From a virus: a stretch of DNA of 64,000 bases. Numbering within the stretch: the first letter of the stretch is position 1; every line of letters starts with the position of its first letter. Positions 17,420 to 37,100 of the stretch are shown here, piece by piece. A program made the translations under genes and the position numbers. The DNA lies in IMG/VR virus record IMGVR_UViG_3300027659_000027, positions 1 through 64,000 of that record; one strand, 5' to 3'. A model generated the notes under the pieces. That model was not told the DNA's origin. It searched no databases and saw nothing but the letters and a program-made list of their open reading frames with translations.

Positions 17420-17863
17420 TTATGGTTTAGAGTCAATAATAGTGAGGTACACCTTGCCAGTTTTCTGGAAGGCATCAATCTTAATGCACAGGTCGTTCAT
17501 TGCAGAGGGGTCTCTGGTGAGCCTCTTATTGCCGTCAGTTTGATAGCTGATTATGGGACAGCCAGCGCTTGACCTGGCTGTAGTTCCGTTGTGTATACGT
17601 ATACCCTCAAAGTCAGGTACATTGAACACACCGGTAAGCCTGCGATTGAACCGGTTAGACCAGGTAACCAGCACAGGGTACCTGCCATAAGGTATCGCTG
17701 TTTCAGCGTACACCTTCAACAGTTTGTTCCAGAGTCCTGCTTTAGCTCTGACTTTGTCCTCAATGACGTGACAGAACCAATTTCCTCCTACGTAGAGGTT
17801 ACCTTCTGTACAGTCTTCGTGTTTGAACTTGCGCTCCAGTACGATCTCCAATACGTTGTTCAT
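17420..17863 (-). CDS. DUF5675-like protein, lysin candidate
   Basis: A 147-residue protein of the DUF5675 type, frequent in Bacteroidota phages near holins. It has no signal peptide. Residues 86-102 (EGIRIHNGTTARSSAGC) carry His91 and Cys102 in an HNG...SxGC pattern that recalls the catalytic His and Cys of L,D-transpeptidases (YkuD family, HG...SHGC). If the similarity is functional, it would cleave or remodel peptidoglycan peptides and be the endolysin of this phage; no other lysozyme, amidase or peptidase candidate is visible in the window. It is followed by the spanin-like gene and preceded by a zinc-ribbon gene. Family call moderate, function inferred. Confidence 0.65.
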   Translation of the reverse strand: MNNVLEIVLERKFKHEDCTEGNLYVGGNWFCHVIEDKVRAKAGLWNKLLKVYAETAIPYGRYPVLVTWSNRFNRRLTGVFNVPDFEGIRIHNGTTARSSAGCPIISYQTDGNKRLTRDPSAMNDLCIKIDAFQKTGKVYLTIIDSKP

Positions 17864-17882: not shown

Positions 17883-18137
17883 TTACCACTTCCCTAATGG
17901 GCACCTCTTTGCGGGGCTCGCTGCGGCAGCGGCAAGTGGGCATTGACAGTGTCCACATTTGTATATGGAACCTGCCTTGTTTATGCTGTGGATTATAGCT
18001 ATTCCTGTCGGGGACAACTGCTCTTTGTACTCGCACCCGTCACAGATTTCGAGCCTTTCTTTTATCATAGGCTTGAAACTGTCAGGAGCAGTTACGAACA
18101 AGTACCAGCCAGTAGCTATCTCTGTAAGCTTACTCAT
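17883..18137 (-). CDS. Small zinc-ribbon-like protein
   Basis: An 84-residue protein with two Cys clusters: CDGC (32-35) and CGHCQC (61-66), plus a late Cys at 79. Two CxxC knuckles about 25 residues apart fit a zinc ribbon. There is no membrane segment or signal peptide. Its stop is followed after 19 bases by the DUF5675-like gene, and its start overlaps the stop of the fibre-like gene by one base. Possible nucleic-acid or protein adaptor; function unknown. Confidence 0.65.
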   Translation of the reverse strand: MSKLTEIATGWYLFVTAPDSFKPMIKERLEICDGCEYKEQLSPTGIAIIHSINKAGSIYKCGHCQCPLAAAAASPAKRCPLGKW

Positions 18138-19432
18138 TACAGTGGTGGTGTTTTAGTGAAGAAAGTAGTGGCTACCTCAATTACAAATAAGGCTTCAAAA
18201 TCCAATGTGGATGTCGGGAATACGAAGTCCGCTACGTCTATGAACGCCGTTACGTATATCTTGCCGTCCGGTGCTATCCTCAGGTTACATTTGTCGATCT
18301 TCTGTGTACCTATTATCAGACTTGAGCCGTATGTCTTTAGTGTACCATCAGCGTATGTAGTAGTCAGCGGTATCTGCACTGTAGTGCTCGGGAAGTATCC
18401 AACCGGCATTGTACCTATCTGTTTGTTGACCAGGTACGGTAATGGAACAGTAAGAGAGGTTAACGGGGTCAGGTCATCGAATAGGATGTACGCTGCCAGA
18501 TGCAGGCTGACCATGTTACCACCAAGTGCGTCAGAGATTGCTGCTACCTCGTTTATGGGCTCGTTGTTTACAGCGTCCCTGGCTACGGCAAAGGCTCCTT
18601 CCATTGTTACTGTATCGGTTGGGAATGTGGGAAAAGCTATTGATCCCGGTTCCCATTTAGCTGTACCAGTGTTGTATATTAAGGTTGAGCCATTAGCTGC
18701 AGCGTCCGCTGTTGGGGCTACATTAAGTAGCTCTCCTATTGAAGGCATATCGAATACACCACCAGCGCTTATCGTTTGTAAGGAAACAGAGATCACACGC
18801 CCGTACTTGTCAAGGGTTATCCTTGGTACTTGTGTGCTTGAGCCATAAGTACCAACCAAGGCATCATCAACAGTGGCCAAGTCAAAGGTTGAAGGCCCTG
18901 CTACACCGTCTCCGTTTGTTACTATGATACGACCTGCAGACCCTGCCACAGACTTAAGAGCCCATGTGTTTGTTGCTGTACGTATAAGATAACCTGTACC
19001 TACTAAAGCTTCAATAGCTGTGAGGTCTGGGCCAATACTTCCTGCGTCTGGTAAATCTTCTAAACTTATAGCAGTTACGTGCCCGGTTTCATTTACAGTA
19101 ACAACCATAAACTTCCCTTCAGTACTGTAAGACCCGGCTGCAATTCCACTTACTGCGTGGGATATTGCACCTGTAAGTCCGTTAAAATTTATTGGTGTAG
19201 TTCCACTTAAAGCTGCTCTGACTCTTGCAGGAGTAGAGTATGGGTTTGTTACTGAGTCTGCAACGTCGTCAGTAGTAAGTACTACTACTCCTTTCTTGCC
19301 ATTTACGGACTCAACACAACAACCCCCTGGGTCAATGGGTTCTGCTGACAAAGTAGACGATTGACTAAGTCCTCCAGTGGTACAGTTGTCTGCGTTCTCT
19401 TGTATTCCGAGGGGGTTATTATTGTTGGGCAT
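18137..19432 (-). CDS. Fibre-like virion protein
   Basis: A 431-residue protein with the composition of phage fibres: Gly, Thr, Ser and Val rich, few Lys, no long hydrophobic segment. The N-terminus contains PGGCCVESVNGKKGVVVLTT, a VNGKxGVVxLTxxDV element I recognise from many phage tail fibre and host-specificity proteins, where it is a short trimeric beta segment. Repeats such as VGTYGSSTQVPRITLDKYGR and VTVNETGHVTAISL match the fibre shaft pattern TxxxxGRVTxxS. It probably attaches to the tail or head and contacts the host. Unlike the giant gene at 21224 it has no signal peptide, which suggests it is the ordinary cytoplasmic, virion-assembled fibre. Confidence 0.72.
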   Translation of the reverse strand: MPNNNNPLGIQENADNCTTGGLSQSSTLSAEPIDPGGCCVESVNGKKGVVVLTTDDVADSVTNPYSTPARVRAALSGTTPINFNGLTGAISHAVSGIAAGSYSTEGKFMVVTVNETGHVTAISLEDLPDAGSIGPDLTAIEALVGTGYLIRTATNTWALKSVAGSAGRIIVTNGDGVAGPSTFDLATVDDALVGTYGSSTQVPRITLDKYGRVISVSLQTISAGGVFDMPSIGELLNVAPTADAAANGSTLIYNTGTAKWEPGSIAFPTFPTDTVTMEGAFAVARDAVNNEPINEVAAISDALGGNMVSLHLAAYILFDDLTPLTSLTVPLPYLVNKQIGTMPVGYFPSTTVQIPLTTTYADGTLKTYGSSLIIGTQKIDKCNLRIAPDGKIYVTAFIDVADFVFPTSTLDFEALFVIEVATTFFTKTPPL

Positions 19433-19465: not shown

Positions 19466-19729
19466 TTACTTTGCAGAGCTGATTATAGTCTCTGCTTTAA
19501 TGCGGCCATACAAAGCCCATAAAGAGCCGATGCTGCTTAGTACAATACCAAGGATAGCTGGAAAGCTTCCGTTAGCGGCTTTAATTTGTGCTATTACAGC
19601 CTGTACCTGAGCTACATCTGCGTTAGCGGGAATTTCAACACCCGTGTTAATGCCGAAGTACAGACAAGCTGCTCCGATAACACTGATGAGGATTCCTCCG
19701 ATTGTCTTAGACTGATACCATTTTTTCAT
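19466..19729 (-). CDS. Small two-helix membrane protein, holin candidate
   Basis: An 87-residue protein with two hydrophobic segments, GGILISVIGAACLYFGI (about 11-27) and FPAILGIVLSSIGSLWALYG (about 56-75), separated by a polar linker and with a basic N-terminus (KKWYQSK) and a short charged tail. Size and topology fit class II holins and the holin-like proteins of Gram-negative phages. It neighbours another small membrane protein and lies a few genes from a lysin candidate. The inner membrane would be its location. Holin function is inferred from size, topology and context. Confidence 0.65.
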   Translation of the reverse strand: MKKWYQSKTIGGILISVIGAACLYFGINTGVEIPANADVAQVQAVIAQIKAANGSFPAILGIVLSSIGSLWALYGRIKAETIISSAK

Positions 19730-19743
19730 AGTATATAGGGGTT

Positions 19744-20067
19744 TTAATGACGTTGTTTAACGAGCAGCTCTTTCACCTCCTCGAGTATCTCCAGGCACTT
19801 TACATTTATCTCCATACTACGCCTGTACTCCCCGGTGATGAACTCTACATGCTTTTCTTGTTGCTTCTCTTGCTCTAACTGCTGGGCATCTACTTTTGCG
19901 TTTAGCCCGGATATTAATAGCTTTGTTTCGCTGTTTGACTCAGACCTCTGTTTTTCCATATAATAGATCACGCCAAGTAGTATTACTGCAATTAAGCCCA
20001 ACAAACCGTAGTCTAATAACTTCGTAGTAGCTGTAACTGCAGGGGTTGGCACTTGTAAGTAAATCAT
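19744..20067 (-). CDS. Single-pass membrane protein with coiled coil (holin/spanin-type)
   Basis: A 107-residue protein with one membrane segment (LLDYGLLGLIAVILLGVIYY, about 17-36) followed by a long charged helix, probably coiled coil (residues 38-105), rich in Glu, Gln and Lys. Such N-out/C-in or N-in/C-out single-pass helices are found among BhlA/YhaK-type holin-like proteins and among inner-membrane spanins. It lies 14 bases before the two-helix membrane protein. Together they may form a holin pair or a holin/regulator pair. Function inferred. Confidence 0.6.
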   Translation of the reverse strand: MIYLQVPTPAVTATTKLLDYGLLGLIAVILLGVIYYMEKQRSESNSETKLLISGLNAKVDAQQLEQEKQQEKHVEFITGEYRRSMEINVKCLEILEEVKELLVKQRH

Positions 20068-20093: not shown

Positions 20094-20525
20094 TTAGTTC
20101 GCTGATCTTCTCAACCTTGTCCGGCCAAAAATTCGCATTGATTGAAATGTTGATTGGTCTGCCGTGTCAAAGTCATCAAGTTTTGCAGTTAAATAAGGCT
20201 GATTAACTGCTCGTAATATATCAGCAACCCTTTTATAACATAATGCTTTTAAAGCAGTTGCGTCATTACTCAAACGCATTATAACAGTTACAAAGTCAGA
20301 TGTATAACCAGTAATAGATACAGTAGTAGTACCTGTGGGCGGGTTAGCCACTCTGAATTTAACTTTCAGAGAATCGTACAAATCCTCGGTGCTGTTGTCA
20401 TTAAAGATGAATGAGCCGATGTACTCCAAATCTCTTGCTTGTACATTGACGCTTACTTTAACTGAGTCCTGTGCTGATAGCCCAAGACTTAACATAATCA
20501 ATAGAACTGTGATTGCTTTTTTCAT
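20094..20525 (-). CDS. Exported protein with Sec signal peptide
   Basis: A 143-residue protein opening with a clear signal peptide: Lys-Lys, a hydrophobic core (AITVLLIMLSLGL) and a probable cleavage site SA|QD. Gln at the first mature position is typical of Bacteroidota signal peptidase I substrates. The mature part (about 125 residues) is beta-rich at first (VKVSVNVQARDLEYIG; TTTVSITGYTSDFVTVI) with a basic end (RTRLRRSAN). I do not recognise the family. It follows two other exported proteins in the same transcript, so a shared envelope or surface role is likely. Confidence 0.68.
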   Translation of the reverse strand: MKKAITVLLIMLSLGLSAQDSVKVSVNVQARDLEYIGSFIFNDNSTEDLYDSLKVKFRVANPPTGTTTVSITGYTSDFVTVIMRLSNDATALKALCYKRVADILRAVNQPYLTAKLDDFDTADQSTFQSMRIFGRTRLRRSAN

Positions 20526-20545
20526 CTGTTTGTGTTTTATGGTTA

Positions 20546-21217
20546 TTAAAATGAGACTCCTTTGTAAAATGTCAAGTTCCCCGAGAATGTAATAACCGGG
20601 TTGTTGGCTGTTGTACTTGCTGCTGCCGTTATATCCGTTGCACTGCTTGTGCCAAAAGATATAGTTCCGTTCCTTGCTGTTGTACCTGCTGTTCTTCCTA
20701 TACCTATTTCAATACATAACCTATCACCGTTGGCACAAGTGTAAGATGTAAGTGCTGCTGCGTTTAAAATTTGATAACTTGTAAGCGTGGTAGTTAAGTT
20801 ACTTGCACCTGCTGTTAATGCTCTAAGCGTTGCCACTACCGCACCTGTCCTGCTTATTACTGTTATCTTAACCCTGCTTTGCACTGTTGCGCCTGTTGCG
20901 TTGGCTATACTCATACGGGCATAGCCAGTAACTGTACCCGATATGGTTTGAGCCTCTAATGCAGGCGAAATAAACTGACCAAAACAAGTCGTTGCTGTTG
21001 CACTTGTAGCATCAACAGCAAGCGTTGTACTTCCAACAGTTGTTGATTGCTTAAAACCTGTTGCATAAGTAGGCTCAAATATCGCACTCGCTGTATTAGT
21101 CCATGTACTAAATGTGCCTATCTGACCATACGGTGTACCTGATGATTCAAACCGCATAATAGTTTGAGCCTGTACATAGCAGGGCAGTAATAGTAATATC
21201 GTTATAAGTTTATTCAT
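20546..21217 (-). CDS. Exported beta-rich protein with signal peptide
   Basis: A 223-residue protein with an N-terminal signal peptide (MNKLITILLLLPCYVQA|QT) and a mature part very rich in Thr, Ala, Ser and Gly, with regular strand-like stretches (SRVKITVISRTGAVVATL). Two Cys pairs in the mature chain (near residues 78 and 160-167) could form disulfides outside the cytoplasm. The composition resembles a jelly-roll or carbohydrate-binding module, but no specific motif is seen. It starts six bases after the stop of the giant adhesin-like gene, so the two are almost certainly co-expressed. Confidence 0.68.
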   Translation of the reverse strand: MNKLITILLLLPCYVQAQTIMRFESSGTPYGQIGTFSTWTNTASAIFEPTYATGFKQSTTVGSTTLAVDATSATATTCFGQFISPALEAQTISGTVTGYARMSIANATGATVQSRVKITVISRTGAVVATLRALTAGASNLTTTLTSYQILNAAALTSYTCANGDRLCIEIGIGRTAGTTARNGTISFGTSSATDITAAASTTANNPVITFSGNLTFYKGVSF

Positions 21218-21223
21218 AATTGA

Positions 21224-24200
21224 TTAATAATATCCTGTTATTCTCCATGCTGCACCATCATAGATAAATTGAACACAAAGCATAGCTGTACCACTTGTTG
21301 TAGTTGGCAATGCAATAGAACTCGCGACAAACGAAGCACCCCAAGTAATTGCTCTACTTGCTGTTCCGGTCACACATATCAATAGGCTTTGTCCTTCTGT
21401 TGGTGTACCTGATAAGTTTGTTGTGAACGAAGTAATATCTACCGTTTGTGCGGTAAGCGAATATTTGTTTACATTATCAGTATTGATGGTTGGTGTTGCA
21501 GAACTTGTTGTTGTACCTGTACGCATGGTTATGCGCTTGTTGGTAAAGGTTGTTGTTGATGAAGCTGTTGGTACTGGTACCCCTCCTATTGTAATACTTG
21601 TTGCGAAATCAGGAGAAGTTGCCCCGTCAAATAGTAATACACCAGTTCCATTCTCATCAGTTACCGCTGACCGCAAGTTTGCACTTGATGGAGTGGCTAA
21701 GAATGTACCTACATTTGCTGCCGGAGTAATACCTGCCCATGTTGTAAGGTCTGCATCATAAGCCTGTACGTTAGTTCCAATAACCAATCCTAAATCAGTT
21801 CTAACATTTGCTGGGCTTCTATTAATCCAGTCCGTGCCGTTCCATTTTAGCATATCCTCCGTAGTAATTGATGTCAAGTCAACGTCTGTTAACGCAGCGA
21901 AGGTAGTTGCACCTCCACCTGTTGAGGCAATAGTTACTACTCCATTTGCACCTGTTCCTGTTGTGGTTAATGTAATATTGCTACCTTCCACTAATTGTAC
22001 TGATGTACCTCCGGTTAATGTAACAGTATGGCTTGTTGCATCATTGGTATTCGCTAATGAACCTCCGCCTGATATGTTATCCCTTGCCCACTCCCTTGTG
22101 GCTATTGTGTCCCGATTTGAAGTGGATGAATCCACGAACAATAACCCGTCTTTAAAATTAAGTAACCCAGTTTCTGGGGTAGTTGGTAGAACGCTATTGG
22201 TAAACTTTAGCTGTCCTGTACCTGCTGTCGCTGTCGCTGCCCCTATATGCAATTTTGCTGTGGGTGATAAAGTATTAAAAACCCCAACATTGCCATTTGA
22301 TTGCTTTAGAAATAGGGGAACATTCCCTCCTGATTGTTGTATAGTAAAGTCTCCTGACTCACCATATAATTGAGTTACATACCCAAGAGGGTTTTCTAAA
22401 TATAATGTAGCCCTTGTACTTGATGAAGTAATACTGATTCGTGGGTTAGTACCTGAAACGCTAATACCTGTCCCACTTCCTGCGCTATTAATGGAAAGAG
22501 CGTTATTATTCTTATCCCATGTAAGCCCTGCATCTTCTTCATATACGCCTCCATCATTAAACGGAATTCTTGTACTCGTTCCTGATGTTATTGCCGTAGT
22601 TCCAACAGTTATGCCTGATGAGCCACCACCTACTGAATCCTTAAGTCCATATAACACCCCGCCTTTTCTGTACCAAAAGCTATCAACGCCGGGTGTGCGA
22701 ATAATGTCGGTAACAAACGCACCTGTGGTGTCTGATGTATAGGCAATCGTTCCTGTTGCAGCTTGTAGTGTAGCGGTGTAATTAGATGCACCTGCATTTG
22801 CTGTTGAAATAGTTGTAACCCCTGTTGAAGTTCCTTTCATTGCAAGTTTATCTTTATCAAATGTTTTCAACCCTGTTACAGTTTGAACATTTGCCAATAC
22901 CATGTCACCACTACCGCCACTTTGCTGGTCTAACTGGTATCTTGTACTTCCAATAGTACCATAAAAGTGCGTGCCGTCAAATTCCATTGCCCCCGCTTCG
23001 GGAGTAGTAAGGTTTGTTCCGGCTGTAAATTTCAAAGGTGATGTGTTAGCTGTTGCGGAGCCAGCTGCTATGTGTAAGTTGGCGGTGGCATAAGTAGTAC
23101 CACCTAAGAACATCTTACCCTCTTTGTTAATAGATCCCAAATTACTTCCTGTTCCATTAGTCCAACTTAAAATATTTGATGTTGCACCAGTTAGTGTAGT
23201 GCTGGTTTGGAATTTATGGGCAGTATAATTGTTACCGCCATCAGTACCAAATTGGTAAGTCATTCCTGTGGCTCCGTTCATGTTAATACTATTAGCGGAA
23301 AAAGTGGTACCTGTGATAGTTCCTGTTGTTGTTGCACCAGTAACTCGCAACCCACCAAGTGCTCGAAGCGCTGGGCTTACATCATATACTGAACTATTGA
23401 CATTGTAATTAACAACTGGACTGCCAAATTTATTTAGGTATGTGAAATCCCCAGCTGCTATATGTGTAAACAGATTAAAACTGCCAAAACCAGCATCAGC
23501 CTTAGTCTGAGATACTACTGTTGATCCATCTTGCAAGCCAGCATTAATAATTACTTGCTTACCTAAAGTAAGTATTTTCGTAGCCGAATCAAATCTCAGG
23601 CTTGAATCTTGCTGTAAACTATTACTTGCATTTTTAAACAATAGTCCATTTGTTATACCCTGATTTATTGTAGTAGTGCCTACGGTTATGCCGTCAGTTG
23701 TGTACGCTAATGTCTTTCTTGTTCCTCCGCTACCTGTATAGTATAAAGTATCTGCAAGTACTTCTATTGCTCCTGCTTCGGGTGTAGTTAGCAACGCTGC
23801 ACCAGATGTTGTGAACTTCAAAGGTGCTGTACCGGCTGCGGCTGTGCCAGCTTTTAAATGTAGTACTGCTGTTGGCGATGTAGTACCTATTCCCATACCC
23901 GTAGATTTTATATTCACTATGGTTGATGTACCGGTAACTCCTAATTGAAGAGTATTACTTGCTTCAATGCTACCGGTATTGGAACTTGTTGTTCTTGCGG
24001 ATAAGTAAGCACCTGAAATATTGTTATGAATATATAATTGCCCAAAATTATTGCCTGATGTGTTTTCTTGAATAGTCAATCTTGGATAAGTGCCGTCTAA
24101 AAAAATACCATCGCTTGTGGTTGAGTTACGAATCGATAAAGGGTTAGACGGCGTTGCCGTTCCAATCCCCAACCTCTTATTCGTACTGTCATAAAAGAAA

Positions 24201-26599
24201 TCACTATTTTTCTGCTGCAATGTTCCACCCGTACCTGCAAATAATACACTACCTGCCGTTGCTGATGTAATTGCTGTACCAATAGCTAACGAACCTCCCC
24301 CCGTTGCCGTATCTGCATAACTTACTAATCCCGATGTAGGATTGTATCGGAGTGCTTTTGTACCGGGTGCGGAGGTTAGGGTATCGATTTTGAGTGAGCC
24401 TGCATTTGGACTTAACGTTATTGAAGGCTGTGTTAACGTTATTTCTGAACCATTTGTCGTGCCGGTATTAACTGTCGTTAAAAATATATTAGCAGACGAC
24501 GCCTCAATTTTAGCCTCAACACCACTTGATACATCAACAATAGACGTTCCACCTGTTGAAGTTTGTGACCATATATCAAAATTATTCCAATTTATAATAT
24601 TTGTACCACCTTCTATTATGTTACTCCCCGTCAACGTACTACCTGCCGTTAACACTTGCTGCAATGTGGGGGTAGCACCACTTCCTGTGGTTGTGTCGGC
24701 AACACTTAAATTACCGCTTGCATCAATACGAACTGCTTTAGTACCAACGGCGGTGGGTAGGTAAGGCATTATTACTTTACTGTTTAAATATAGCCTTTGA
24801 TTTGCTGCTGTGGCATCTTGTGCGCCGTAGATTATAGAAGCGGTTGTGTCTGCTCCCGCACTACCTCTTTGGATTGAATTTATAAACAAGCTATAAGGGT
24901 TCATTGTTACGGTGTTAAATGCAGCCCTGTATCCTAAAGCTATCCCACCTACCGCTGTTGTTGCATTTTGTAGTGCGCCAAATCCGATTGCAGTATTTGA
25001 AGCAACGCCAACACCGCCGTTTAGTAGTGCGCCTGCACCAAAAGACGAATTAGCCGTATTTGTAGCTGAATTATATGTAGATTCGCCATAACTTGTGGTA
25101 CTCGGCCCAATTCTACCTGCGAATACATTATTTCTTTTAAAAACAACATCCTGTGCATCCGTTGTTCCAACAAAGTCCGTTCCTGCCGTTGTACCACTGT
25201 TTCCTGTAAGCGACCATCCGGAGCCGCCTACTGCACCTTCAATAATATTACCACTTGCGTCTACCTGTAAAGAGTATGTGGCTGTTCCTGTAATAGCACC
25301 AGTTCCATAGCCTTGAGCTTTTATCTTTCTGTTCTTGTAAATAGTGAAAGCGTCTGCCGGTGTAGTACCTCCGTCTTGACTTGAGCCAACATTGAATATT
25401 CTGTCGGTAAGGTTGTTTGCTGACGTGTAATTTGTACCCATAAAACCGATAGCCATTTCGTAATCCGCTCTTGAGTTATTATACTTACCAAATACCGAAC
25501 CCGATTCTCCGTAGGCGTTATTTTGGAAGCCTTGTGCAAATGACCGCTGACCAGCGGTATAATTAAGGTAGCCGGTAGCAAAACTATAATTACCCCCTGC
25601 ATTATGCGCCCCGCCAAAGGCTGCTGACCCAACTCCAGTTACAGCTGAAGCCACAGTTGATAAATCTAAACCAGCTGTTGTAAATGTCGAACCCGCATTC
25701 CTGCTAATATTACCGTTGGCATAGAATAGTAGCCTGGTAGTATTATTCGTTTTTATTGCATAGTCGTAGTTATCAATCGTACCAGTCCATTTGCCGTTAG
25801 ACCCAACTGTGTTACCCGTTAACCCCCAACTTGTGTCAGACCTTGCTGCCCATGAAGTAACACCATTACCATCTGTTTGTAGAACTTCATTTGCTGCACC
25901 ACCTGTTGTTGGTAAGGTCATTGTCCATGTACCTGCTGTTGTAGCTGGCTGAACAGTTACTGTCCCACTTGTAGATCCTAATAACTTTAACACACCCCTG
26001 TTATTCCCACTGTAACCACCACCGCCTAATACCAAAGAGCCTTGATATGTGTTAAGCCTAACATCTCCAGCGTATGAATGAATAGCTATATTAGCTGCCG
26101 TACCTTGTGAAGCACTTGCATAAATACCAACATTTGTTGTATTAACGCCTAAGTTATTATTCACAGCCCTAAAAGCTGTAGCAGAACCATTATCCACAGT
26201 AGTTCCCATTGTACTAAGACTAAGTATCCCAGCACCATTTGCCATTGATGGGGCATTACTATTCATAGTTAACCCAACGCCTGTAGATAAAGTATTCCAA
26301 CTCCAAATTTGCCCAAACCCTGCATTATTGATTGTATTTGTTGCTGTTGCTGCTGTAAGTGCCGATATAGGTAAAGAAGAAGTTTTTGGCCAGCTTGTAG
26401 ACTTTCTTAAATTACCTGAACTGTCCAGTAATGCCAGCTTGTACAATGTAGTATCACTAACTGACGCAGTATTTTTCACTCTGAGCTTTCCTTGTACCTC
26501 AACAGTATTTGCTGAGTTACCAATTGACTGGGTTTGCCCCAGTACTGTGGCTGATATAAGTACCATCAGCGTGGCCAATGTTAGTTTTATTGTCTTCAT
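21224..26599 (-). CDS. Giant exported fibre/adhesin-like protein with modular repeats
   Basis: A 1791-residue protein. It begins with a Sec signal peptide (KTIKLTLATLMVLISATVLG|QTQS), unexpected for a virion fibre assembled in the cytoplasm. Residues about 320-387 and 513-563 hold YadA-head-like left-handed repeats (GSAAFGG, YSFATGY, RSFAQGF, TAIGFGAL, GIALGYRA). Three long modules at about 816-940, 1040-1200 and 1370-1490 share the blocks LGIGTATPS, LHIAAG...PLKFT and TTPEAGAIE seen in Bacteroidota surface proteins and phage fibres. The C-terminal 150 residues form a Thr-rich beta domain ending IYDGAAWRITGYY; I see no S74 chaperone motif. It is a trimeric adhesin or fibre, either displayed on the infected cell or used by the virion; topology is unresolved. 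Confidence 0.75.
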   Translation of the reverse strand: MKTIKLTLATLMVLISATVLGQTQSIGNSANTVEVQGKLRVKNTASVSDTTLYKLALLDSSGNLRKSTSWPKTSSLPISALTAATATNTINNAGFGQIWSWNTLSTGVGLTMNSNAPSMANGAGILSLSTMGTTVDNGSATAFRAVNNNLGVNTTNVGIYASASQGTAANIAIHSYAGDVRLNTYQGSLVLGGGGYSGNNRGVLKLLGSTSGTVTVQPATTAGTWTMTLPTTGGAANEVLQTDGNGVTSWAARSDTSWGLTGNTVGSNGKWTGTIDNYDYAIKTNNTTRLLFYANGNISRNAGSTFTTAGLDLSTVASAVTGVGSAAFGGAHNAGGNYSFATGYLNYTAGQRSFAQGFQNNAYGESGSVFGKYNNSRADYEMAIGFMGTNYTSANNLTDRIFNVGSSQDGGTTPADAFTIYKNRKIKAQGYGTGAITGTATYSLQVDASGNIIEGAVGGSGWSLTGNSGTTAGTDFVGTTDAQDVVFKRNNVFAGRIGPSTTSYGESTYNSATNTANSSFGAGALLNGGVGVASNTAIGFGALQNATTAVGGIALGYRAAFNTVTMNPYSLFINSIQRGSAGADTTASIIYGAQDATAANQRLYLNSKVIMPYLPTAVGTKAVRIDASGNLSVADTTTGSGATPTLQQVLTAGSTLTGSNIIEGGTNIINWNNFDIWSQTSTGGTSIVDVSSGVEAKIEASSANIFLTTVNTGTTNGSEITLTQPSITLSPNAGSLKIDTLTSAPGTKALRYNPTSGLVSYADTATGGGSLAIGTAITSATAGSVLFAGTGGTLQQKNSDFFYDSTNKRLGIGTATPSNPLSIRNSTTSDGIFLDGTYPRLTIQENTSGNNFGQLYIHNNISGAYLSARTTSSNTGSIEASNTLQLGVTGTSTIVNIKSTGMGIGTTSPTAVLHLKAGTAAAGTAPLKFTTSGAALLTTPEAGAIEVLADTLYYTGSGGTRKTLAYTTDGITVGTTTINQGITNGLLFKNASNSLQQDSSLRFDSATKILTLGKQVIINAGLQDGSTVVSQTKADAGFGSFNLFTHIAAGDFTYLNKFGSPVVNYNVNSSVYDVSPALRALGGLRVTGATTTGTITGTTFSANSINMNGATGMTYQFGTDGGNNYTAHKFQTSTTLTGATSNILSWTNGTGSNLGSINKEGKMFLGGTTYATANLHIAAGSATANTSPLKFTAGTNLTTPEAGAMEFDGTHFYGTIGSTRYQLDQQSGGSGDMVLANVQTVTGLKTFDKDKLAMKGTSTGVTTISTANAGASNYTATLQAATGTIAYTSDTTGAFVTDIIRTPGVDSFWYRKGGVLYGLKDSVGGGSSGITVGTTAITSGTSTRIPFNDGGVYEEDAGLTWDKNNNALSINSAGSGTGISVSGTNPRISITSSSTRATLYLENPLGYVTQLYGESGDFTIQQSGGNVPLFLKQSNGNVGVFNTLSPTAKLHIGAATATAGTGQLKFTNSVLPTTPETGLLNFKDGLLFVDSSTSNRDTIATREWARDNISGGGSLANTNDATSHTVTLTGGTSVQLVEGSNITLTTTGTGANGVVTIASTGGGATTFAALTDVDLTSITTEDMLKWNGTDWINRSPANVRTDLGLVIGTNVQAYDADLTTWAGITPAANVGTFLATPSSANLRSAVTDENGTGVLLFDGATSPDFATSITIGGVPVPTASSTTTFTNKRITMRTGTTTSSATPTINTDNVNKYSLTAQTVDITSFTTNLSGTPTEGQSLLICVTGTASRAITWGASFVASSIALPTTTSGTAMLCVQFIYDGAAWRITGYY
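22140..24160 (-). repeat. Modular protein repeats inside the giant adhesin-like gene
   Basis: Three to four copies of a protein module, each with an LHxxAG block, a PLKFT block and a TTPEAG or TTPETG block, separated by roughly 265-275 residues. Approximate copy positions of the LHxxAG block are 22205-22265, 23030-23090 and 23815-23880; a diverged copy (LSIRNS) lies near 24120-24150. The repeats are recognisable in protein but diverged in DNA, so they are old duplications or independent acquisitions rather than recent copies. Confidence 0.7.
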
Positions 26600-27198
26600 T
26601 ATAAGGGTATGGTTGTGATTTTTATGTACTCTCCTTCCACCAGTGGGTGAGAAAAGGTAACGGATGTGGATGATAATACTTTTGTGTAATAGTACTGGTC
26701 CCCTGGCATGACTATACCGGGTAATGGTAATACCCCTCGTATAACTTCTACCCTTACTCCGGTAAACTTTATGTGGCTTATAGAGGTCAACCCAGCCTGT
26801 CCGGCGCTTACGTTGAACTCGAGTATGAATGTTGGTGAGCTTGTGTTTACTATTGCACCTGATACCTCTTCAGTACCGCCTGGTATGTATTGGCCCTCAA
26901 GTTTGTAGTCGCAACATTCCTGCTGCAGCTCCTCTATCTTACCAATGATGGCTATGTATTCCTGCTCCGTCATTGTACAAGTACAATCATCAGGGCACCA
27001 AGAGTCGGCAGCGTACATGAATAAGTACAAGCAGATCATGCGCTGGTAATCTTTCTTCCCGTTTACGCATGAGCTTAATGGGGAAGAGTACAAGTTCCTT
27101 AGGGCATTCTCAATTGCCAAACCGGCGAGTGTTAACCCGCCAGCGTGTAGTGCTTGTGCTGATTCCTCAGCGGTAACTGATGGATTCACGATTAGCAT
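26599..27198 (-). CDS. Hypothetical late protein, Cys-rich middle
   Basis: A 199-residue protein not recognised. Residues 1-60 are helical; the middle carries clustered Cys (SWCPDDCTCTM and ECCDYK, about residues 68-95) separated by a helix, and the C-terminal 100 residues are strand-rich (TFILEFNVSAG; VEVIRGVLPLPG) like a small beta sandwich. Its start overlaps the previous stop by seven bases and its stop overlaps the giant adhesin start by one base (TAATG), so it is tightly coupled to both. Possible connector or appendage subunit for the following fibre gene; the evidence is positional. Confidence 0.65.
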   Translation of the reverse strand: MLIVNPSVTAEESAQALHAGGLTLAGLAIENALRNLYSSPLSSCVNGKKDYQRMICLYLFMYAADSWCPDDCTCTMTEQEYIAIIGKIEELQQECCDYKLEGQYIPGGTEEVSGAIVNTSSPTFILEFNVSAGQAGLTSISHIKFTGVRVEVIRGVLPLPGIVMPGDQYYYTKVLSSTSVTFSHPLVEGEYIKITTIPL

Positions 27199-27989
27199 GT
27201 GGTACAGGGTTTAAGGGTTCCTATAGTCTTGGCAAGTAACACTGAGGCGTTGTGGGCCTTGGCGTAGTTGCCACAACTGAATGCAACCTGTGCAGCCAGC
27301 TTGAGAAGTATTCGGTCAATAAGGTCTTTGGAGTTGTTGGAATCACATCCACACTCAGAGAGTGCCATGTTTGACAGGTCTTTGATGATGCCGCCTTCGC
27401 CACCATTTACTACCAGTAATCTCAATACGGCTGAGTAGTACTTGGTGCACACATCTCCAGCTTCTAAATCAACCGAGAACGCCTCGTACAATTCGATGGT
27501 GTTCGTAAGCACGTCGATGCTCTTTATCTGGCGGATTTCATCAGGGGCATTTACATTCCTCAGGTGAGTTACGTTTGCGAATTCGTCAACGAACAGAGGT
27601 ACATCCCCAACGCTTATGCGAAAAAAGTTGCAGGTTACTTTTAGCCCATCAGTACTGGGTACAGTTGCCCAGGCCGCAGTAATGTCTCCGTCTACCAAGC
27701 TGAGTTCAGTACCATATAAGGCCTTGATACTCGTTACACCATCCCTCAGGTAGTAGCCGACAGTTAGACCATCTATTATGTTACCAGTGTACAGAACCCT
27801 TGCAGCTCTTAAGTACTCCTCTCCATAATACTGGGTTTCAACTACAGTGTCAATTATTGCAGCGTCATCAACGGGGCCTCCTATCAACCCGTAGGTTATA
27901 GAGGAATCCTTTATGGTAAAGTTAGCCGAGGATCTTGGTACTACTGTTATCTGAAACTTGGGGGAGAAATGCGGGTCTTCTGCGGCCAT
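27192..27989 (-). CDS. Hypothetical late structural-type protein
   Basis: A 265-residue protein, first gene after the giant RNA polymerase gene and its double hairpin. The first 190 residues are strand-rich without hydrophobic segments, as in phage tail components; the last 75 residues are helical and Cys-bearing (ECGCDSNNSKDL, SCGNYAKAHNASVL, KPCTTC). The following gene also has paired Cys, and the two could form a metal-linked or disulfide-linked pair. The start codon lies two bases past the 3' arm of a nine-base-pair hairpin. Function unknown; appendage or tail protein by position. Confidence 0.68.
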   Translation of the reverse strand: MAAEDPHFSPKFQITVVPRSSANFTIKDSSITYGLIGGPVDDAAIIDTVVETQYYGEEYLRAARVLYTGNIIDGLTVGYYLRDGVTSIKALYGTELSLVDGDITAAWATVPSTDGLKVTCNFFRISVGDVPLFVDEFANVTHLRNVNAPDEIRQIKSIDVLTNTIELYEAFSVDLEAGDVCTKYYSAVLRLLVVNGGEGGIIKDLSNMALSECGCDSNNSKDLIDRILLKLAAQVAFSCGNYAKAHNASVLLAKTIGTLKPCTTC

Positions 27990-28102: not shown

Positions 28103-31100
28103 TTAGTGACCTATGTCCATCAAGTCTTTACTGGTCATGTAATCGAACTTACTGATGTTGGACAGACCCGGTCCAAGCTTAGCTGTACGCTTCCACAGTT
28201 TTTCGTACCTCTTCGGGTCATCTCCTAACAACTTGGCAGAAGCCTTCAGCAACTTGAACGCATCAGTAACCACAGTAAGGCATGGAACCGGGTTTCCAAG
28301 TACAGTATCGAACACGTCAGGGGATGCGTACAAGGTAAGATCCTGATAGTTCCTGGTCAGTAGGTTCACAAACATCCTTAACTCTGCAGGTGTTGAACTC
28401 AATCCTGCTCTTCTGCGGCGCTTTTTTTCCTCCTCATCAGGGCTTAGCAGGGCCTTCATAGTAAGAATAGCTGTAAGGAAGCCTATGGTGAAGGCTATAC
28501 CTGACAGGTTTTTACGCATGTTCTCCTTATCCATATCCGATATTGGCTCTCTCTTCCTGTCTTTAACATCAGCAAAGGCATCAAGGCTGACACCGGGTAA
28601 GGCACTCAGCACTTGCTTAATAAGTACAAAGCCAGAGTTCAGAATACCCAGATCAGCTATCGTCCTGTACCTGCCCTTTACATCTCGGTCAAGTCTAACA
28701 TCGAAACGCTTGTCCTGAAACCTTGTAGCAATACCTTCAGGTAACCAGCTCATACGAAACTGACCGATCATTCTCCACATTACGTTCTTACGGGCCATCA
28801 GTTTGGAGTTAGCATCCTGATTACCGAATACCAGCGTACTTACAGCTTTGGTCTTGGTACGAAACTTGACCCAGCTCTTCTGTTTGTCTGCATCCTCTGA
28901 CTGCCAGGTATCGTCAATACCGAACCTCTCTGCATTCCAGTCGCCTTCGCTGTTATGAGCATCCCAAAGAGAGATTTCTTTCTCCACTCCGTCCTCTGTT
29001 ACCTTTACCATCTTGTGTTTCATCATAGCTATCATCATCATACCCTTGGTGAAATAGTCACCAGAAAGCTGCCAGTTCAAGGGCATCACAGCCTTGGCTA
29101 TCGACTTTTTCTTCATGGTGTCAATGTTGGACTCACCGTGCAGACTGCTTTGTACTTCGTTAATCAGGTTCATCCTGAGCATCAGGTTGAATATCTTGGC
29201 TGCTGCTTTGTCTTGTCCGAATGCACCAAAGGTTAGCCACTTATGTTGAGCATGCCGCATCTCATGCATAGCCTGACGAGCAGTTTTGTTGGTATAGTCC
29301 ATTCTTCCGTTGGCGTGTATCATCACTGAGATCATACCGAAGGTGAAGTTGGTTATGGCAGCAAACGGGTTGAAGGCAAGGGCTCTCAGCTGGTTAAAGC
29401 TTATTAACATGTCAGCAGCCTTGCTTCCAGCAAAGTACCGGCCGGATGCTGTGATTTCTTCGATACGCTCTTCAATCTTAGTAAGCCTGTCATCTTCCTC
29501 GATAGTCATGACTTCCACTCCACCCTTCATCTTTTCCCACAATTTCTCCCGTTCTTCTATCAAGTCTTTGATCTCGTTGGATAACTTCTTGTGTTCTTTT
29601 CTGCTGGAAGAGTATATGGCCTCATTGCTTACAGCCTGAGCTTGCTTATCGTTACCAAAGAACACCGACTTCTTCATGAACTCGATAGCCTCTATGGTTT
29701 TGGTAAGTGCTGGCCCTTTCTCCGGATCTTCCAGTCTTGCCTTGTTAATGCTCTTGATAAGAGCCTCACCTACATTTACGGTATCCAGGTGCTTACTCAT
29801 GTGCTTATGGCGAATAGCCATTCTTGAGAATTGCTCCATGGTGTGCAGTAAGTTTTTACTCCACCCGGCTACCTGCTCCTGACGACGTAAAAGCTCTTCT
29901 TCTTTCAGGTTGTAGGACTTGCCAGTGTTAATGAATGCCAGAGGAATCTCGTCTTTATTGGTTTTGTAGTTTTTCTCATAGTGGCTAACTGTGGAAGCCA
30001 TGAACCCTCTGTTCAATAAAGATTTCGGCTTAAGCTGCCCTATCTTACCCATTAAGCTGGCTGTGACTTCTGCTGTAACTGATGGAAGGAAGCTTGTGTC
30101 CATCTTGTCAGTTACGTGCGTAGGCAAACCATCTAACAACTCATCACGTATTGCTATGAACTCCTCGAAAATGGCCGCCTTTGTGATTACAGTCGCATCC
30201 TTGTTGGCAGTAGCCATTATAGCTTTGTGCTTAGCATCGTAGAAAGCATCGTTACTTAACCTTGGGGCTTTAACAGTGAACCTGGAGCTACCAAACCCTG
30301 AGGTAGAGTTATTGGCAAGTTTGGACTCAAAGAACAGGTTAGGGGATTCGTAACTGTCCCACTTGTCCTTCTCAGCCTGTATCATCTTTTCAAGTAGCTC
30401 ATTCTCTCTGGTAGTTCGTATGTCGTATTGCTCCTGCGGGGCCAACAACAGCTCCTCAGCTGTAAGTACCACCGCTGCTTTTTCCTCTTCAGTTAACTCA
30501 TTTGCCTCAAAGTTCAGGAACGCAGCCTCTTTTGCATCCAGGTACTTTTTGTACTGCTCTCCGGCTTCTTCTATCAGTTCCTGAGCATGCTCTTCAGACC
30601 CCACCTGCTGTACAAGGTATGCCATTTCAGTATCTACAGTTGTACCAGACATGGCCTCTCCTGTTTCTATATCAAAGAAGATGCGGGTATCAACAAATAC
30701 CGCTGCAGTACTAAGGGCTTTCCAGTACCTGGCATATACAGCAGCTGATGCCTCTCTCCTTTTATCAGGATCCTTTATACCTTTGGCCTCTTCCAATCTG
30801 TATTCAAGGGTAGACTCCAACTTGTTGATGTGTGAGAACCACTCTGGCGAGTATCTTTGTACAAAACCATGAGCGGTGTCATCCTTGTTCTCCTGCATGA
30901 ATTCTTTGTACAAGCCCGGTAACCCTCTTTGCCCAACTAACTCCTCCATCTTTGTCTTCAATGCCTCAAGCCTGGTGGCATACTTACGTATTTCACCATC
31001 ACTATTCTCTGCAGCTATGGTACCAAGTACTCCAATAGTTGCTGTGAGCTTGCTCTCTGCTCTGGCAAGTGTTAAGAAAAGCTGTGTACCTGAGAACATC

Positions 31101-34100
31101 TCCTTAAGGCTCTTGTCGTAATCTTCAGGGGAAAGTGCTATGTCATAGTTACCAGCCATTCTTGTGAATACTTCTTGAGCCTTTCCTGCGAACTCACCAC
31201 TACGGAGTCCACGAGCATCTCTCATAAGTTCTCCAAGCTCTGCGTTATAGCTTGCAACATCTGTCTCTCCTCCGTACACCAAGTCAATCACTGTAGACCA
31301 GATGTCTAATATGTTCATAGCTACCATGATCTCCTGAGGAGTAGGGCTGTCTTTAGCGATAATGCTTTTGGCCCATGCCAATTGCTTAATGCCCACCTCT
31401 GATACAGCCTCAAGTTGGTTTTCATGTAGCAACTTATTGATGTCCTCGCTAACTTCACGGCGTTTAGCCTTTATATTCTGGTACAATTTTTTGCCCTCAT
31501 CTGTTGTAGTATTAACTCTGTTGGCAAGTGCATTAAGTTCTTTCTCTTGTACCTCAAGCTTATCTATTATCTTCTGCACGTCCGTCCTTACAGGAGCTGT
31601 TGGAGCAAGTCCGTGCTTAAAAGCTGACTTCATAACAATATGAGTTCCCTCACTGGAGATCTTCACTTCTTTGTTGTAAGACTCTTCCAGTACATCTTTG
31701 ATGGTGTTGGCATACCTTTCGGTCTCGAACTCCAACGTAGTGTCCTGCTCTATTGCAGTCTGTACACGTACTGTTGTATCCCGGTTGCTGTTGAGAGTAG
31801 CAAGTTTCAAAGAGAGTGTGATAGCTTCTTTCAAGGCACTACCGTCACGAACCTCCACACCCAGTGTACGTGCAATGCTGTCAAGTACTGCAGTTAATGC
31901 ATCCCATATTGCTTCCATAAGTGTGCGCTCACCTTTCACCTGTACAGTGTTAAGGAATGCAGCGACCTTCTTATTGGTAAGGCTATATGAGATCAGCTCG
32001 TCCACACTGGACAGGGCGTATAGATTCAAATGGTCATCCGTAGTAATCTCATTGTTCGCAACGTCAGTCATGATCTTGGCAAAGGCTTCTTCCCCTTGCT
32101 CCAGGATAACACGAGCACGTAACTCCACCAGAGCCTGGTACCTTATAGAGTCAAGCTTACCAAGGATCTTTTCTACCTCCGGGTACTTGTTGTTGAACTC
32201 ACCGATGCGGGCTATTACTGCGGCTTTCTGTGCAGCAGTAATGTTCCTGTATATAGCCGGGCTGAACCCAGACATCATTACTAATCCTCGGGTACGGTGG
32301 TGAAGCATTTCGTGTAGTAATGTCTCAGCGGCTGAGTTGCGATCACCGTTAGCCTTGTTGAGTGTAAGCCTGCTTTTGTTCAAGTCATAAGTACCATCCA
32401 TATCTTTTGTTGCTTCGTATGCGACCTCGAAGTTCTCCGGTGTTGCATCAGCAAATGTGGCTCTCAGGCCATCATAGGCGAAGTCAATTTCTGAAGTAGA
32501 CCCAAGTACACGGGCAACTGTACGTAACGATTCAGGCATACGGTCATCATTTGCCACAGCGCTCAGCATCTGGTGGGCAACCTCTATTCCTCCACCCTCT
32601 TTAGGCATACCAAAGTTTTCGTAGGCGTTCTCTTTATTCTCCATACTTTCAGTAAGGTCGTTTACCTGCTGGGTAAGTGCGGCTATAGGGTTTGTTGGGG
32701 CTATCTTTACTGCTGCTGCCCTGTTCTCTTGAAATATAGATCTTGCTCCCGACACTGCACCGTTATACTCATCAGTATTCGTGTTACCGAGCGTGTCAAT
32801 TCTCTTGTAAGTACCAAAGCCTGATCTCTTGTACAGTATACGCTTACCATCTGCTGAGGAGTTGTAGGAAAGGTACATAGGGTATGCGTAATCTCCTTTA
32901 GAGTCTGCTATAACCATACGTTTATGCTCAATATTCGAGGGGTACCCCTTAAAGTCGATAGGACTGAGTGAGAACACTTCGTCGAAAGTAACCGAGTCAG
33001 CGTGGAATACACTGTCATCAACCTGCATTGCACTATCCGGGAAATGCTGGAAGAACTGCTCCATGAAGGTAGACGAGTTACCGTATATGTTTATGTTTTC
33101 CTCAGCCACCCGAAGTTGCCTGGTGAACTCACTGTCTATCAGGTATGACAGTGGTATCTTCGACAGGAATGAACTTGCGTCCATGTTACCACTGGATAGG
33201 TAGGCGTATCGTATAAGGTCTTCAGCAAGTATCTTCACATCTCTGTCAGTTGAGCTGAGCATCTCCATGAAGGAAGACACGTTCATGTTCTCATCATAGG
33301 TCGCTGCTTTGGCAGAGTTGAACCCAACAAAGTCAGGACTCTGAGAGGTAAACCCAATCTGCGGATCCAACCTTTGCATGAAGTAACTGGTAGCACCCCA
33401 CGTAAGCTTGGCCTGTGCAACTCTTTGCGCCAGTGATGGGCCATGTATGTTGTACATAAGCCTCAACCTCTCCCCTGAGGCGTCAGGCCACAGGGTATGA
33501 ATGGAAGAGTATACGTAAGAGCGCATAGACTTTATAACTTGCTTCTGCAAGTCTATCGGCAGCTGGGTCTTACCCGTCTCTGCGCGTAACCTATCGAACA
33601 GGGAGTTCTTTTCCTTGTTGGGTACCAGAGACTGGTAAGGAAAGAATTGCCCTACCAGGTTTACTGCCGTGTACATCACCGTTGAGAAGGTCTTTGCCTG
33701 CTCAGTACCATTAGCAAGCTCTACCTCACCAAGTATACCGGTCTCTATCTTATCGTTAAACAGGTTCTGGTACTTTGTAACTTTGTCGGCCGCAGCAAGG
33801 AATCCTGGCCCGGCGCCTTTGGTGTCCTGGTTGAAGATGGACTGCAGCTCGGTCATTCTCGTACCGGCGCGATCCAGCTTCTCGAATGTAAGCAGAATTG
33901 CCAGTTGCCCTTTGTCTGTGGGGCGGTTAACCTCAGCAAGTAAGCTTTCCGGTGTAAGCTTGAACTCACTCAATACTTTCTTGGTAACGTAATCCAGTTC
34001 GTCCTCATTGTAATCCCCTGCCTCTTCTCCGCTAAGTACCTTCATGATAAGGGGCCTTTTCAGTTTCTCGATCACTGACTTCTTCAGATCTGGCTCGAAC

Positions 34101-37100
34101 ACTTCGCTCAAGCTATCATTACCGTCAGCCATCAACCGGGAGAACTTGCGTATCACCGGGGATGTCAGCATTCTGGTAGCGTACCTTAAGTCTACGGCTT
34201 CTGGTTTGCCGTCACTACTCTCCAACATCATCAGTGCTGCAACAGCCTTGTACGTGTCAGGGGTTAAGTTCAGGTTATCCAGTGATCTATCCTTGGCGTT
34301 ATCCACTGCAGCTGACTGCAGGGTGGTAAGGTTATCATGCTTGGTACGTACTTCGTACTCTCCCTTGGAGTTCTTGTACAGGCTGGTGGCATACCCTGAC
34401 AGTTTGTTCAGGTGGATAGGTGTACCATCTTCTTTGTGTAACGTGATACTGAACGGCTTGTCCTTGGTGCCTACGAAGTTTCCTTCAGTATCATACACAG
34501 CCTCCTTGTTGCCCAGCTCCAATGCCTTATCCTGTATCACAGAGTTGAAGGTAACCGATAGCGAAGTAAGACCAACAAGCGTCTTAGCGTATTTACCACT
34601 CTGAAAGTCAGATAGTTGTGTGGTTACGTTGAAGTAGTTATTGAATCCTGACTCCTTAGGCTTCAGCAAAGTGTTCTCGTTCTTAATGTCCTTCTTGTCC
34701 AAAGGATTGAGTACCTTGTTGTAAACATCCTTGTGGGTAAGTACCGCCCAATGTACATCAAAGTACTGACCCTTAAGCTGTGCGTCTGTAGGTTTTGGCA
34801 GCGCTGCCAGCTTGCTTAAACGCTCAGCATGAAAGGTGTCAATCTTACTTTCGAGCTCTGGTGTCTCCACCAAGTTAGCCGGTACATCCTCTATCGCTTC
34901 TATTCCATGAAGCTTTGCGAAAAACTGCTTAATAGATGTCTCACGGGTGCGATCAGCATTGTCGGTAGGGGCACCCGTGAAGGTGTCCACTACGAACTTA
35001 CCATCGACCATCTTGTACGGTCTCTTGTAAGTGTAAAGCTTATCCACGTCAAAGTCAGCTCCCATCTGCTTGGTTATAGCAGAAGGTACAATCATCAGGT
35101 CACCCATGCTTGCTGGCGTAAATCCGACGATCTCAATGGCGAGCATGGAGTTATGCCCCTGATTCGGGATACGGGCACCAACGAGCTGTAATAGCTCCAC
35201 AGGTACCTTTTTCATGTCGAGTGTCTTACCGTCTTCCAGTAAGTAGTCTTTTATGTTCGCAGGAACCCATTTACCGGTCTCGTCCTGTATGGTGAATGTG
35301 AATGGCGCTATCACCTGAGCCGGGATAACTGTACCGTCTTCGAGCACCTCCATTGTTTTCAGCGGAGTAGAGGCGTCATAACCATTGGCGTAGACTATAC
35401 CACCACGCTCCTCCTCTGTAAGCTCCTGCATCTGCCTCATCTTATTTTTGCCTACATATCCAACACTTGCTGCCTGTACGTAACTCTTACCTGGCATCTT
35501 CACGTCTACGATGGTCTTGATCATTGACATTAGTGTACTCTCAAACTTCTCGGCAGCCGAAGAAAACATCAAAGGTATCTCCAGTTCCCCTTTATCATTT
35601 CGATACACCAGTGCTGAGATCTCGTTCTCCGAGAACCCACGGTCGCGAGCCTCCTGTATAAGCCTCTCAAGTACTTTGGTCTTGTCAACAACCTCACCAT
35701 CTTTGTAGTTCATCTCTTTGGCGAACTTCTCGAAGTTTCGGTTGATGAGATCCATGCGGATACTCTCCTTATACTTTCTCAAGGCTGCAGCATTCATCAT
35801 ACGACCACCTACATTAAACTCAGCTCCGGGCAATGCTGCCAGGCTCTCTGTGATTAGCTTGTTCATCTGAGACAGGGTCTTGATAGCTTCCTTGGTCTCG
35901 TCGTAAGGTATCTCCTGCTGTATACGCAGACCACCTCTGTCAAGTACATGAATGGAGTCTTTCCACTGCTTATCGTCGAAGTTTCCGCCAAGGTATTTAC
36001 CCTCAGGGCTGAACAGTACCATCTGTGTGGTAGGGTTACCCAGCTTCTTGGATGACCCGTGAGGAGCTCTCGCTATACCATGCTTCTCCATATCTCTCCT
36101 CAGTCCATCTATCTCGAAGTTTTTAGTAAGCGGAGGATATAGTGGGTATGAAGACGACTTGATGTAGTCATGGAACTTTGTACCACGATCTTCGGGCCTC
36201 ATAGCCACAAACACAGGCTTGGCCGGCTGCATGATAACAGCGATATGGTCTGCCTTCTCGAACTCATAGTACCCGTCAGGTTTCTTCTCACCCTCCTCAA
36301 CAATCACCATCATCTCTTTGTACAAAGCCTCTTGTATCTTACCGCCTGCGAACAGCATCTTCAAGTGTTCACGAACTGTGGTTAACTCCTGAGCATCTGT
36401 GGCATCCACCTCTTTATAGGCTTTCTGCAGCTTACTGTTCTCGGTAAACCTGTCTATGTAATTCTCGTCAGTAACCACATCGGCTATAGTGATCGTGTTG
36501 TACTTAGTATCCTCCCAAGCCATGTCCTGACCGGGTGCTATGTCCTTTGCCAATCTCTTGGAGTACTCCTGATACGTGGCATTTACCAACGTCAGTGACT
36601 GTCCGGCTTTAAGTACTTTCTCTCCTTTGGTATTCTGCTCAAGCTGAGAGTCTTTGAACTTTGCTGCCTGAGCAGGGTCACCGTAGGCAAGCTGGGCCAT
36701 AGAGGTATTAACCAGGAAGTAGTTTAGCGAAAGGTCTCTGGCGGCGGTCTTCACCACCATGTCGTATATTTCCCGCTTACCCATCTCCTCTCCATCAATT
36801 GTCCACTTTCCTTTGCTCTTCTTGATATTGTTGTAGCTACTGTTCTCCATCAGCTTCTTCACATAACTGCTGTCAAAGCTGTATGTAGCTTTACTCTTGT
36901 TAGTTATGCCAGCATCCTCCCACTTAGCCACAGTGTCCATCGTCATCTCTTCAATGAAGTGATTGAGCATGGCAGATATAACCTTCTTTGCCTTATCGCC
37001 AATATCATTGGTGATCTCACGATTGTTACCTTCCCCTACCCACAATGTCGCTATATCCTTCTCAGTCATAGCTCTCGGGGCTCCAGTGTCACCGAAGTTC

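Follow-up and report, generated by a model that had tools for sequence, protein, structure and literature searches.

Why would a phage place secretion signals at the start of three consecutive genes in a late virion operon, one of them encoding a giant fibre-like protein? Tailed phages are considered to synthesise and assemble their fibres in the cytoplasm. A first-pass annotation of this locus suggested that the three products might be displayed on the infected cell or join virions after lysis. Here we examine the signals, the surrounding genes and the equivalent genes of other phages to ask where these proteins go and what they may do there.

Source phage

The window analysed here is a 64-kb part of a record of 76,024 bases (~76 kb) from a virus with Bacteroidota-type hosts. 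Two of its features bear on the class of the phage:

60700..62220, minus strand: major capsid protein, ~30 per cent identical to crAssphage major capsid proteins over 97 per cent (sequence comparison)
28103..40768, minus strand: 4221-aa giant carrying MGADFDVDKLYTY, presumed to be the crAss-like virion RNA polymerase

The translation of the giant contains a DFDVDK motif, matching the DFDxD rule known for giant virion RNA polymerases, and we take it to be the crAss-type enzyme. Together with the capsid match, this bears out the earlier description of the genome as crAss-like, and by these sequence marks the source phage is a deep member of the Crassvirales. Related capsids occur on 31 environmental contigs, most of them 59–77 per cent identical, and the largest of these contigs were read whole or in part. 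A search of genome contigs with the major capsid protein found no link to a host.

Three export signals in a virion and lysis operon

The genes of interest and their neighbours, in the order of transcription, are listed below, with predicted signal cleavage sites marked by a slash.

27192..27989, minus strand: 265-aa protein of the virion module, without a signal; it marks the fibre slot in relatives (38 per cent identical in G002, 31 per cent in G003, 36 per cent over part of its length in G011)
26599..27198, minus strand: 199-aa virion-module protein without a signal, located upstream of the cassette (from the reading frame and inspection of the N-terminus)
21224..26599, minus strand: predicted 1791-aa exported fibre-like protein, N-terminus MKTIKLTLATLMVLISATVLG/QTQSIG; stalk at residues 446–655, linker and tip at residues 1591–1791
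20546..21217, minus strand: predicted 223-aa exported protein, N-terminus MNKLITILLLLPCYVQA/QTIMRF
20094..20525, minus strand: predicted 143-aa exported protein, N-terminus MKKAITVLLIMLSLGLSA/QDSVKV; directly upstream of the holin/spanin-like genes
19744..20067, minus strand: 107-aa protein with a TM segment and coiled coil, weak match to Rz-like spanins (phrog_739, E 0.0028)
19466..19729, minus strand: 87-aa two-TM protein, holin-like by its hydrophobicity
18137..19432, minus strand: 431-aa signal-free fibre base, presumed virion-bound (phrog_697 structural protein, E 1.3e-10)
17420..17863, minus strand: DUF5675 protein in the lysis-proximal cluster (Pfam, E 3.7e-21)

The first-pass annotation had described three adjacent genes with Q-rule signals, and their coordinates, ATG starts, signals and Gln at a plausible +1 position were all confirmed. 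The Q-rule is a hallmark of the Bacteroidota, followed by 71 per cent of signal peptidase I (SPI) substrates (PMC5837995), and has been described for host proteins (PMC5837995, PMC10653852). Each cassette protein starts with a short, lysine-containing n-region, followed by a strongly hydrophobic core (mean KD over 12 residues of 2.3–2.7), a site of small residues and then Gln. Among 45 hand-listed genes of the window, a K/R n-region, a hydrophobic core and an AXA-like site occur together in these three alone. The products of 19466–19729 and 19744–20067 are also hydrophobic and resemble membrane anchors.

Signals were called with a rule-based scan and by eye. The scan takes no account of Gln, and it picked all three cassette genes, each with an n-h-c signal and small residues at -1 and -3, along with 19466–19729 and a Q-rule gene at 74693–75088. 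Gln at +1 is clear at VQA/QT and LSA/QD and plausible at VLG/QT. In the 1791-aa protein the scan ranked a cut at ISA/TV above VLG/QT, so the position of Gln is least certain there.

The start of the 1791-aa gene overlaps the upstream stop codon (TAATG), and the gaps that follow the 1791-aa and 223-aa genes are 6 and 20 bp. This spacing indicates one operon, with virion genes upstream and holin/spanin-like genes downstream, in agreement with the late virion operon proposed earlier. We also considered the 143-aa gene as the o-spanin of an Rz/Rz1 pair and rejected it, as it has no lipobox; only the product of 19744–20067 matches Rz, and weakly.

The 1791-aa protein and its signal-free counterparts

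Judged by its modules, the 1791-aa protein is fibre-like, as the first-pass annotation had it, and it is the only one of the three with recognisable stalk or tip modules. Its last 201 residues (1591–1791, linker and tip) were found again in 444 viral contigs, and the contigs that we opened mostly encode plain phage fibres. Those sharing this module in L078, L080, L081, L082, L096 and L102 carry no signal. The tip shares 57 per cent identity with the end of the L078 fibre and aligns weakly to the C-terminus of a G011 fibre. Residues 1715–1787 share 60 per cent identity with a segment of a Methylophilaceae phage protein that carries a tail tape measure annotation, and residues 1630–1672 match another phage protein. 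A structural model of the tip matches tail-fibre, minor-tail and collagen-repeat phage proteins; its confidence is low (pLDDT 58), so these matches are supportive only. Peptide-pattern searches of viral contigs found no direct relatives of the 1791-aa protein.

The stalk (residues 446–655) is 36 per cent identical (E 1.6e-10) to a 1504-aa fibre of G002 that has no signal and fills the same slot. The N-terminus of that fibre is in turn 43 per cent identical over 250 aa to the window's 431-aa protein, which also matches a G003 protein (39 per cent over 425 aa). Base and stalk/tip are thus one gene in G002 and two genes here, with a signal only on the second. This split between a base and a signal-bearing stalk and tip is the most suggestive single point in the comparison.

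The two small proteins offer less to compare. The mature part of the 223-aa protein has no homologue in PHROG, Pfam/NCBIfam, viral contigs, phage records or the PDB, and its AF2 model, predicted alone, has too low a confidence to inform (pLDDT 36.5). Neither the 143-aa nor the 223-aa protein has relatives by peptide patterns in viral contigs or in phage records; sequence searches of the PDB gave no match, and the mature parts of both are without known relatives. The 143-aa gene occupies the position of a 147-aa Q-rule gene in G020. Homology between these two seemed plausible by eye and was rejected, as the similarity is insignificant (E 2.8).

Signal-bearing and signal-free fibres in other phages

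Signal-bearing genes in the fibre slot were found in four phages: three in the window, one in G011, one in G002 and four in G020, for a total of nine. In G011, a 1193-aa fibre starting MNKLLSILSLFLLLNLSAAA/QPV (SAAA/QPV) follows proteins like the 265-aa and 199-aa ones and precedes the endolysin. The closest large relative, G002, has two signal-free fibres and one starting MMRLTILLVLLKISAAYS/QGV; by eye, the end of the latter resembles the end of the signal-free fibre two genes upstream. G020 is a different phage of 73 kb, probably temperate, with an SU10-like capsid and no crAss capsid match. It carries four consecutive Q-rule genes (L160:3590-10515; MKK...A/QYI, S/QPG, S/QRV and S/QNN) directly after a signal-free virion-module protein, and next in line come holin-like, lipoprotein spanin-like and endolysin genes together with a recombinase. 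Over 80 residues, the window giant shares 78 per cent identity with one of the four. We recognised no signal-free fibre in either G011 or G020, which leaves the exported proteins as the only fibre candidates there. Searches with the 1392-aa and G002 fibres as queries found no independent new cassette.

Gln stands at a plausible +1 position in 9/9 of these genes. With about 5 per cent Gln expected per site (our own figure), chance does not account for this, even when the choice of cleavage sites by eye is taken into account. The mature parts of the nine proteins have little or no similarity to one another, and the retention of signal and Gln despite this divergence suggests selection for export. 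Tagged fibre genes in several phages suggest, from their sequences, a recurrent way to place fibres outside the cytoplasm.

Other fibres have no such tag. Homologues without signals were expected in the first-pass annotation to speak against export, and here the relatives divide. Fibres of G002, G011 and G020 do carry signals; the homologous stalk in G002 does not, and the fibre slots of G003, G007 and G013 hold only signal-free proteins as far as seen (G013 stops at the contig end). In the Cellulophaga phages phi14:2 and phi40:1, virion proteins are marked from MS/MS in the GenBank records, and the proven fibres gp091, gp092, gp094, gp096, gp097 and gp098, as well as gp085 and gp087, all lack a signal. 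The premise that virion fibres normally go without one therefore holds in these phages, and virion fibres of Bacteroidota phages do not bear the tag as a general rule. Flavobacterium FpV4 gp33 and the Azobacteroides phage genes inspected at the presumed slot are either not fibres or have no signals. Phage DGR target proteins lack the signals present on bacterial ones (PMC6199706).

The giant's linker module also occurs in bacterial chromosomes. A Cyclobacteriaceae MAG encodes a 558-aa protein (L166:6299-7975) that starts MKKLAFAVCFGILSISLFG/QLP, contains repeats of the module and is adjoined by SusD-like and laminarinase-like genes. A second chromosomal Cyclobacteriaceae gene with the module (L187:1-3441) adjoins a PorP/SprF-like gene. 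The module is present in 2/149 genomes of that class and is otherwise rare. Since phages and hosts share modules, a host-type signal could have been acquired through recombination. The fact that divergent phages have kept it argues for its use.

Predicted destination and possible function of the three proteins

Pfam/NCBIfam scans of the three cassette proteins found no T9SS sorting domain, and inspection by eye found no lipobox, Gln rather than Cys being at +1. The predicted destination is thus the periplasm until lysis. We consider the best explanation, at a probability of roughly 0.4, to be that the three genes form a late exported-fibre cassette, whose fibre would be released at lysis and then bound by the virion as its distal receptor-binding part. 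The cassette would be transcribed together with the virion and lysis genes, and its products would leave the cytoplasm through host Sec late in infection. Host signal peptidase I would cleave before Gln, from which the host glutaminyl cyclase would probably make pyroglutamate; with no recognisable route through the outer membrane, the products would accumulate in the periplasm. On lysis by holin, endolysin and spanin, they would meet particles leaving the cytoplasm. The long fibre, aided by the two small proteins, would then bind virions, possibly at the signal-free 431-aa base, and serve, presumably as a trimer, as the distal receptor-binding part.

What can be read from the sequence is the set of signals, the operon position, the fibre modules, the recurrence and the lack of known outer-membrane sorting signals. 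Counting against this explanation are the signal-free fibres shown by MS in phi14:2 and phi40:1 virions, the slots of G003, G007 and G013, signal-free as far as seen, and the two small proteins, whose mature parts match nothing known. To our knowledge, assembly of tailed-phage fibres from the periplasm after lysis has no established precedent. It is more doubtful that some Bacteroidota phages export a distal stalk or tip through Sec, mature it with pyroglutamate in the periplasm and snap it at lysis onto virions that carry a separate, cytoplasmic base.

The evidence for export would be identical if the proteins were freed at lysis and never joined the virion. As a soluble adhesin, decoy or surface-active fibre, the cassette might coat debris, neighbouring cells or extracellular polysaccharide, with less wasted adsorption or altered plaque surroundings as the result. 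The Cyclobacteriaceae proteins show that cells can employ the module in a secreted adhesin, and the signal-free base of the window phage could serve the virion alone. A soluble adhesin is a tentative alternative, nearly as likely as attachment to virions. Attachment is favoured by G011 and G020, which would otherwise be left without a receptor-binding fibre, no other candidate having been seen, and the cassette occupies the virion fibre slot.

We think it improbable that the N-termini are inert, so that these are ordinary virion fibres assembled in the cytoplasm with host-like N-termini gained by recombination. Such an origin would suit the homologous stalk on the signal-free G002 fibre, and chromosomal proteins that combine the module with a Q-rule signal are available as donors. 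It fits poorly with the retention of signal and Gln across four phages, in nine fibre-slot genes with barely similar mature parts, with the signals on the small cassette proteins, and with the signal-free virion fibres proven by MS in relatives. Least probable of all is display on infected cells while they still live, whether to block superinfection or to aggregate cells. The export signals are present, and phage Q-rule proteins have been suggested to modify host outer membranes (PMC10367356); with neither a T9SS sorting domain nor a lipobox found, the products would have no known way out before lysis, and the late position adjoining the lysis genes also argues against display. The first-pass annotation is thus supported in part, and its option of joining virions after lysis fits best.

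Relation to known systems

Phage use of the Q-rule is already known: five Q-rule genes of unknown function occur in temperate Porphyromonas gingivalis phages (proposed Nixviridae; PMC10367356). Those proteins share with the cassette a phage-encoded Sec signal of the Bacteroidota type, and the passage describing them mentions neither fibre modules nor a crAss-like fibre-slot cassette (PMC10367356). Bacteroidetes Q-rule SPI substrates show the same signal and Gln pattern (PMC5837995, PMC10653852), but are host proteins, whereas the cassette encodes phage proteins in a virion and lysis operon. The chromosomal Cyclobacteriaceae adhesin (L166) shares the Q-rule signal and linker module and is a cellular gene beside polysaccharide-use genes, while the cassette belongs to a phage. 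Crassvirales virion fibres (phi14:2 gp091–gp098) resemble the cassette in virion-module position and fibre-like architecture; unlike the cassette, the members proven by MS start without a signal. Receptor-blocking phage lipoproteins such as T5 Llp are small and made early. Like the cassette products they are phage-encoded, are directed out of the cytoplasm and could act on receptors, but the cassette encodes a large, late fibre and has no lipobox.

We found no description of an exported fibre cassette in the literature searched, which covers the field incompletely. If the reading is correct, export-tagged genes in the fibre slot would represent one of two things: a new assembly route that is completed at lysis, or secreted phage adhesins as a class. 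In both cases the prediction of receptor-binding proteins in Bacteroidota phages, crAss-like ones included, would change, and the question can be tested directly in isolates.

Additional Q-rule and spanin-like genes

Several further genes were noted during these comparisons. The Q-rule gene at 74693–75088 (L002:10693-11088) is the fourth in the source phage; it lies outside the window, far from the cassette and on the opposite strand, and encodes 131 aa starting MKKYLLLLILTVATTVLYG/QTT. In three relatives, genes for lipoproteins that have a TM segment at the C-terminus (u-spanin topology) lie close to the fibre slot or to lysis genes (L046:2181-2714, L056:18390-18890 and L160:2020-2538), and none is obvious in the window. 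An 850-aa fibre with the signal VLA/QE (L083:5347-7899) adjoins an 804-aa fibre without a signal; this phage is GC-rich and may not infect Bacteroidota. Last, G003 has a 207-aa Q-rule gene (L043:12833-13456) directly after its major capsid gene, where capsid decoration proteins are typically encoded.
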